From positions 2,542,001 through 2,606,000 of the forward strand of contig NZ_CP017560.1 in assembly GCF_001753205.1 (NCBI RefSeq): DNA of 64,000 nucleotides, in the 5' to 3' direction. Source of the stretch: Sporosarcina ureilytica. GTDB lineage: Bacteria > Bacillota > Bacilli > Bacillales_A > Planococcaceae. The translations under genes and the position numbers were made by a program. Below are positions 28,196 through 50,041 of the stretch, piece by piece. A model generated the notes under the pieces. The model worked only from the letters and a program-made list of their open reading frames with translations, ran no database searches and was not told where the DNA came from. Numbering within the stretch: the first letter of the stretch is position 1; every line of letters starts with the position of its first letter.

Positions 28196-28310
28196 TTACT
28201 GTCCAGCTACGGCCGCTAGTCTTTCGACCGACAGGATGTCCTAGTGCCGACGTTGCCACAGGACGTGGCGCACTTAGTCGGCCAGTGCCTGTCGAGGCTA
28301 TACGAGCTCT
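28196..28310 (+). repeat. Palindromic intergenic element, left part of the rpoZ-coaBC gap
   Basis: In the non-coding stretch 28,042-28,440, this segment contains nested inverted repeats. GTGCCGAC (about 28,236) pairs with GTCGGC (about 28,276), and inside it GCCAC-aggac-GTGGC. GACAGG and CCTGTC arms lie outside. It has the same flavour as the following element (GTCCAGC start, CTTTTTT end). No open frame of note is present. Confidence 0.6.
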
Positions 28311-49462: not shown

Positions 49463-49528
49463 TCAAAAATCCTCCTTAAAATAATCGGACGTAATCGCAT
49501 CCTACGTTTTATTATGTTTTTCAACAAT

Positions 49529-49658
49529 GTTGATTTCCGTTCCAGGCGGACGCTTTCCGCGGGGCGTGCGGTGAGCCTCCTCGTCGCTGTGCTCCTGCGG
49601 GGTCTCACCTGTCACGCTTAATCCCGCTGGAGTCGCCGCCTTCCACTCCAATCAACAG
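49529..49658 (-). repeat. 130-bp inverted-repeat element inserted in the ileS leader
   Basis: Bounded by perfect 8-bp terminal inverted repeats TGTTGATT (49529-49536) and AATCAACA (49651-49658). The interior is GC-rich with nested palindromes: GGCGGACGC against GTCGCCGCC, and GGTGAG against CTCACC. It differs in sequence and composition from its flanks. I recall similar elements in intergenic regions of other Bacillales, but this was not searched. It contains no open frame. Confidence 0.75.
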
Positions 49659-49734
49659 AGAGATCTCATCAATAAAAGATACACTATTTGCAACAACCTA
49701 CTTAATGACGAGAGGAATAAAGATAATTTTCCAC

Positions 49735-49975
49735 AAAAAAATCCCCATCCCTAAAAAGGGACGAGGAATTATACTCGCGTTACCACCCTACTTGCAGCAA
49801 AAACACATTTTGCTACCGCTTAAGTCGCCATAACGGAGGCTAACCGGGACTACGTACTCCATTCCGTAATCCAGCTCGAGAGTGATTTTCTTTTCCAGAT
49901 GTGTCATTAGGCTCTCACTATCCCTAACTCGCTTTATAACAAACAGGAAAATACTGTCTCTGTCCATGCTATTAT
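49735..49975 (-). promoter_or_regulatory. ileS: T-box riboswitch (isoleucine) in the ileS leader
   Basis: The conserved T-box sequence AGGGTGGTAACGCG lies at 49776-49789 (minus strand). A stem I region with GACAGAGA near 49,955 and GTGAGAGCC follows the leader start. A plausible specifier codon ATC (Ile) is at 49884-49886 in the GAAAATCAC context. Downstream is the terminator: AATTCCTCGTCCC / GGGATGGGGATT followed by T7 (49736-49768). Uncharged tRNA-Ile should stabilise the antiterminator and raise ileS expression. Confidence 0.93.
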
Positions 49976-50012: not shown

Positions 50013-50041
50013 ATTATAATTGTGAAACTAATATGAGTCAA
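50013..50041 (-). promoter_or_regulatory. Sigma-A promoter of the ileS leader
   Basis: Minus-strand TTGACT (50036-50041), a 17-base spacer and perfect TATAAT (50013-50018). It is located about 40 bases upstream of the T-box stem I, just after divIVA. Confidence 0.85.

Follow-up and report, generated by a model that had tools for sequence, protein, structure and literature searches.

A structured hairpin in the ileS leader of Sporosarcina ureilytica, probably the core of a decayed mobile element

Introduction

The leader of the ileS gene of Sporosarcina ureilytica contains a GC-rich element of 130 bp with perfect 8-bp inverted ends, placed between the terminator of a T-box and the ribosome binding site. 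This raises the question of whether the element belongs to the leader or was inserted into it and, if inserted, from what kind of unit it derives. The initial annotation of this DNA, made from the sequence alone, took the ends TGTTGATT/AATCAACA to suggest a non-autonomous mobile unit. Here we analyze the element in its host genome (G000; 3.44 Mb, single contig), in a genus set of 68 genomes assigned to Sporosarcina by ileS, and in a set of 261 genomes from 19 genera of a single family. The window is the whole stretch of 64,000 nucleotides analyzed (G000:C1:2542001-2606000). By GGA strand we mean the strand with GTTGATTGGAG...GGAAATCAAC, which at ileS is the strand transcribed together with the gene.

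Results

The hairpin in the ileS leader

The element is present as initially described (Table 1). On the minus strand, the order is T-box, terminator-like stem, 130-bp hairpin, ribosome binding site and ileS, and the G+C content is 0.63 in the hairpin versus 0.30 in the remaining gap. A folded segment of 146 nt containing the hairpin reaches −63.4 kcal/mol, compared to −48.1 ± 3.7 for 200 shuffles, none of which was equally low. The initial annotation suggested that the element could affect mRNA stability or translation. In the predicted leader RNA, the core forms an independent hairpin; the centroid structure leaves the ribosome binding site open, whereas the minimum-energy structure pairs it in part.

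Table 1. Features of the ileS region, in window coordinates
Feature	Position	Strand	Basis
ileS, 919 aa	46703..49462	-	ORF; relatives' ileS
Likely ribosome binding site of ileS, AAGGAGGA, at 50 nt from the core	49470..49477	-	read from sequence
Stretch between G060-alignable blocks, probable extent of the decayed element (209 bp)	49509..49717		G060 alignment
Structured core hairpin	49528..49657	-	fold; covariance-model match of 144.8 bits at 49529-49656
8-bp arm TGTTGATT on the left, closing an internal stem rather than ending a transposon	49528..49535		inverted repeat; longer copies
Right 8-bp arm AATCAACA	49650..49657		inverted repeat
Terminator-like stem of the T-box leader	49742..49767	-	consensus match
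T-box leader, RF00230	49754..49975	-	Rfam match, 130.7 bits
Promoter-like TTGACT-17-TATAAT, upstream of the T-box	50013..50041	-	consensus match only

The distance from the T-box motif AGGGTGGTAnCGCG to the ileS start is 327 nt in G000, against a median of 126 nt at the 67 of 68 genus loci where the motif was found and of 116 nt at 79 named loci. These medians bear out the earlier statement that the gap is usually short, but at 17 of the 67 genus loci it is at least 200 nt, with the element in 7 of these and without it in the other 10.

At the gathering score, no model of Rfam 15 matches the core, and at E≤10 there is a single match over it, of 10.5 bits (E 3.7) and on the opposite strand. Elsewhere in the window, a Bacillaceae-1 RNA (RF01690, 48.1 bits) lies at 28228-28295 on the minus strand.

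Presence at ileS among relatives

Judged by the N-terminus of IleS, the closest named genomes are Sporosarcina (L061-L067, 87-91% identity). We examined the ileS leader of all 68 genus genomes with covariance model R1 and found the element in eight, with no match at this place in the other 60. Five copies are in ileS direction (G000, G039, G053, where the copy is truncated by the contig end, G023 and G046) and three are reversed (G007, G010, G025). Of the 80 named loci, four match the model within the ileS leader, in each case in ileS direction: L065, whose sequence is that of the G053 copy, Cytobacillus depressus, C. eiseniae and, partially, Neobacillus (L086). In L140 and L083, the model matches lie outside the ileS leader. 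A different repeat, resembling CTACAGGATGTAGGTATGCAG...GCGACAGGACGTCGCG, occupies the ileS gap in the genus genomes of loci L164, L170, L171, L172, L176 and L178.

A conserved ileS leader element is ruled out by this distribution, with a model match in only 8 of 68 genus loci. The initial annotation had named, as the result that would speak for a regulatory leader, the same sequence at this locus in all relatives without further copies; we found many genomic copies and, at ileS, an element that is missing even in the closest relative.

This relative, G060, has an IleS N-terminus 99% identical over 120 residues and lacks the core at ileS. Between flanking blocks of ∼92% identity each, G000 has 209 bp (49509-49717) and G060 70 bp, in which there is no similarity to the arms of the element. 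Because this is not a clean insertion, gain in G000 and loss in G060 are indistinguishable. Moreover, G060 retains shortened remnants with internal deletions at two other sites, L054 and L006, so that absence from G060 need not mean that a copy was never present.

Copy number and spread

The suggested search for further copies was productive. BLAST finds 51 matches in the host genome and the covariance model 45 (E≤0.01); our own-genome set comprises 52 sites in all. At E≤1e-3, BLAST has a match in 61 of 61 genus genomes, although G006 and G021 have one weak match each. At E≤1e-4, the covariance model locates the core, for which Rfam 15 holds no matching model, in 249 of the 261 family genomes and in all 19 genera; the 12 genomes without a match at this threshold are G006, G021, G065 and nine others. 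In addition, the core occurs by BLAST on 11 plasmid records, nine of them from Priestia, Bacillus, Peribacillus, Radiobacillus and Niallia. On Priestia megaterium plasmids, annotated hypothetical proteins overlie the core (L244:2501-2638, L245:2502-2684); these are probably spurious. A literature search by sequence string, mostly outside subscription papers, found no report of the core.

The GGA strand is that of the upstream gene at 35 of 52 sites (p 0.018) and that of the downstream gene at 32 of 50 (p 0.065). Both counts use our own ORF calls and sites that are not independent, and we give this orientation bias little weight.

Structure and covariation of the core

A length of 120-140 bp is found in 29 of the 45 own copies. 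Leaving out two odd ones, we aligned 27 of them with three cores from Priestia. For these 30 cores, RNAalifold predicts 36 pairs, 24 of which have changes on both sides. The share of paired cells is 98.3%, compared to 87.2% for shuffles, and falls to 33-48% when the partner is shifted. A larger alignment of 95 distinct rows, drawn from several genera and fitted to the model, shows double changes in 31 of the 36 pairs. Since unpaired stretches of the core are also conserved, the pairing is not merely that of a perfected palindrome; by eye, GGA lies opposite GGA twice near the base. The 8-bp arms TGTTGATT and AATCAACA close this structured core and are not transposon ends.

Among 3295 cells of the cores, 78 are G-U and 24 A-C, whereas T-box leaders, used as control, have 546 G-U and 5 A-C in 2233 cells. 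As rows are related, these tallies are not independent counts, and the contrast to the T-box is a hint only, because RNAalifold's 34 T-box pairs miss part of the known fold. With these limits, G-U outnumbering A-C suggests selection on the GGA strand, and the scarcity of G-U hints that the selected form could be DNA rather than RNA.

In type A copies (27 of our own; see below), the arms contain a conserved A+T-rich stretch like TATAAAGGTATCTTC before the core, without a −35 box by eye, and ATTGTTnGGAATT after it. Some cores contain nested hairpin cassettes (L023, L024, L029, L032; also L144, L179, L193): cassette X (AAAAGCCGTCACGAAGAACGGCTTTT) is terminator-like by eye, and cassette Y is CTTAATTTCTGCAAA...CGCAGAAATACGGCAAA. 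Y-like sequence also occurs in the core-less ileS leaders L144 and L179.

Outer ends and target-site duplications

In the better kept copies, conservation continues past the core, for ∼45 bp on one side and ∼88 bp on the other, to an outer repeat, GAGTCAATTTCATAATT. We refer to MITE-like stretches ended by this repeat, of 168-598 bp, as type A. Own and genus loci together yielded 63 GAGTCAATTTCATAATT-bounded stretches, a number in which sub-stretches nested in others are counted and one element appears from two genomes. Exact 4-bp direct repeats abut the GAGTCAATTTCATAATT ends in 29 of the 63, where 2.6 are expected from shuffled flanks. The 23 core-bearing stretches include 11 with an exact 4-bp repeat, one with 2 bp only and 10 with none. 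The same genome also has a core-less MITE family of 66-144 bp (L210-L237, e.g. L214) that shares the GAGTCAATTTCATAATT ends and likewise shows 4-bp duplications. Between pairs of GAGTCAATTTCATAATT repeats we found no ORF of at least 250 aa in 30 loci (reach ∼1.5 kb from the repeat), and for this commonest type of ends no autonomous element or transposase was found within ∼1.5 kb of each repeat. In viral contigs, an 18-base form of the outer repeat is matched exactly twice; the 170 bases on either side of these matches show no partner repeat.

We compared all 52 own sites to G060, which has no orthologous locus for seven and one flank only for three; the others include sites with sequence of G060's own. 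Eleven sites are empty or near-empty in G060 (L003, L007, L012, L014, L027, L033, L034, L059, L295, L296, L298), with clear duplications at four and none clear at seven. L003, of type A, is a 265-bp insertion with an AAAT duplication. The type B elements L295 (1049 bp) and L007 (1207 bp) have ends TGATTGAGTCAAG...; L295 has the exact 8-bp duplication TCGTTAAA and L007 the 8-bp TTCCAATA, identified by eye inside a 16-bp overlap. L298, of type D, is a 1238-bp insertion with the exact 8-bp duplication TAACTTTC and ends that look ISL3-like by eye. L027, one of the seven sites without a clear duplication, is 205 bp long and has other ends again. The larger elements of 1.0-1.2 kb combine 8-bp duplications with two outward-facing cores.

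The ileS copy shows neither a recognisable outer repeat nor a target-site duplication; by eye, its inner arms resemble type A. The view of the element as a non-autonomous mobile unit holds as far as a dispersed, non-autonomous mobile repeat is concerned, but the proposed ends are the base of an internal stem. In better kept copies the outer ends lie ∼45 and ∼88 bp farther out, and other copies are contained in larger elements with different ends. The target-site duplications that had been suggested as a check are seen in part of the copies, with 4 bp in type A and 8 bp in the larger elements, but not visibly at ileS.

Insertion sequences with the core

Four own copies lie in an ISL3-family IS (L019, L020, L022, L028). 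The transposase frame is open in L019 and L022, where the core is located between the transposase stop and the right end; L020 and L028 are deleted versions that retain the core. The intact own copy is L022:144-1700 (NF033550, E 3.1e-100). By eye, ISL3 IS of the genus carry the core in G000, G023, G034 and G052 but not in G001, G018, G027, G047 and G063, so the core is not a fixed part of this IS. Model matches fall into the ISL3 loci L250, L251, L265 and L266. Relative to the diverged IS of G027, the extra stretch in G052 comprises the core and ∼40 bp on each side. The ISL3 IS of G016 (L252, L262) has, at the same place, a related hairpin whose ends differ (GTTTGGAG...CGGAAAAC).

In G055, the core is part of an IS1182-family IS (NF033551, E 4.2e-111; 1852 bp in L386), where it lies between the IS end and the transposase start. 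Three copies (L386, L387, L388) have 8-bp direct repeats. They are also flanked by inverted repeats, whose resemblance to a terminator is clearer in L387 than in L386 and L388.

Elements whose ends differ share the same core, as do IS of two families. In a tree of the cores, which is based on ∼130 columns and has many weakly supported nodes, the carrier types are mixed in two clades.

In the ISL3 IS as well as in the IS1182 IS, the GGA strand reads toward the nearest element end. Among 20 pairs of neighboring cores at most 1500 bp apart, found in 98 loci, 16 point outward, 4 in the same direction and none toward each other; these loci are best matches rather than a random sample, many are copies of one element, and our guess is about six independent cases. 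In the host genome, L007, L021 (both counted in the 16), L041, L295 and L298 are all outward pairs.

Discussion

Most probably, the insert at ileS is a decayed copy of a non-autonomous MITE whose interior of ∼130 bp is the conserved structured core. The element would have been moved to ileS by a transposase that acted in trans at its outer ends, these ends would have been lost since insertion, and the core would now ride in the read-through ileS mRNA as an independent hairpin. A T-box leader can accordingly acquire a large hairpin downstream of its terminator.

As initially proposed, TGTTGATT/AATCAACA could instead be the ends of a mobile unit consisting of the 130-bp core alone. Such a unit would account for a core common to elements with different outer ends and for the same kind of ISL3 IS existing with and without it. 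Against this, at none of the 11 sites that are near-empty in G060 is the inserted stretch a bare core, every insertion having extra arms; the extra stretch of the ISL3 IS includes ∼40 bp on either side; and target duplications, where present, adjoin the outer ends. We consider a bare-core unit quite unlikely, and only slightly less so a transposon relic since co-opted as a stability element of the ileS mRNA. In favor of the latter, the ileS core is intact and well paired, and in Bacillus cereus co-transcription of bcr3 repeats is associated with longer mRNA half-life, although according to the authors a causal role of the repeats does not follow from this (PMC3446304). Against it, the relative G060 manages without the core.

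A regulatory role in the ileS leader is very improbable for the core, even though it lies in the read-through mRNA and has a strong, independent fold: the model has no match at ileS in 60 of the 68 genus genomes, three of the eight copies are reversed, and 45 model matches are spread over the genome. Least probable of all is a REP- or REPIN-like repeat mobilised by a Y1 (REP-associated) transposase. The core is a hairpin repeat, frequently in inverted pairs, and the host genome has two Y1_Tnp matches, but 18 of 68 genus genomes have no such match and all 18 contain the core, whereas Y1_Tnp is present in G006, G021 and G065, which have no model match at E≤1e-4. The inverted ends with 4- or 8-bp duplications also point to another kind of transposase.

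As for the role of the core in its carriers, it possibly acts in transposons, though we would not put this at even chances, as a boundary hairpin at the element end, on outgoing RNA or single-stranded DNA and via a host factor; a host factor is favored over a transposase because elements with different transposases share the core. In a similarly tentative, more general reading, the core may be a portable, strand-oriented hairpin module that DDE families (ISL3, IS1182, several MITE types) acquired separately near their ends and kept outward, with selection on its structure, as a shared accessory recognised by the host and by no single transposase. If one folded module does serve different transposases, this would point to a host process common to mobile elements, and the core would offer a marker for insertion mapping across Bacillales.

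Among known systems, MITEs are described as short non-coding elements with inverted ends, Bcr1 being an example (PMC3733652). The core elements resemble them in being short (168-598 bp in type A), multicopy (45 model matches) and without a transposase gene of their own. The two IS differ in transposase family, end sequences and the side of the core, yet both carry it, and the intact ISL3 copy of the host has the core while related IS in five genomes do not. REPINs and BIMEs are palindromic repeats in alternating or paired orientation, as are the core pairs; unlike REPINs, the core is present without a Y1 transposase and with 4- or 8-bp target duplications. The repeats bcr1-bcr3 of the Bacillus cereus group, MITE-like and often found within UTRs or operon gaps (PMC3446304), are by description also short and non-coding with inverted ends. 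What sets the present elements apart from the bcr MITEs, again by description, is that several element types, differing in their ends, share one structured core.
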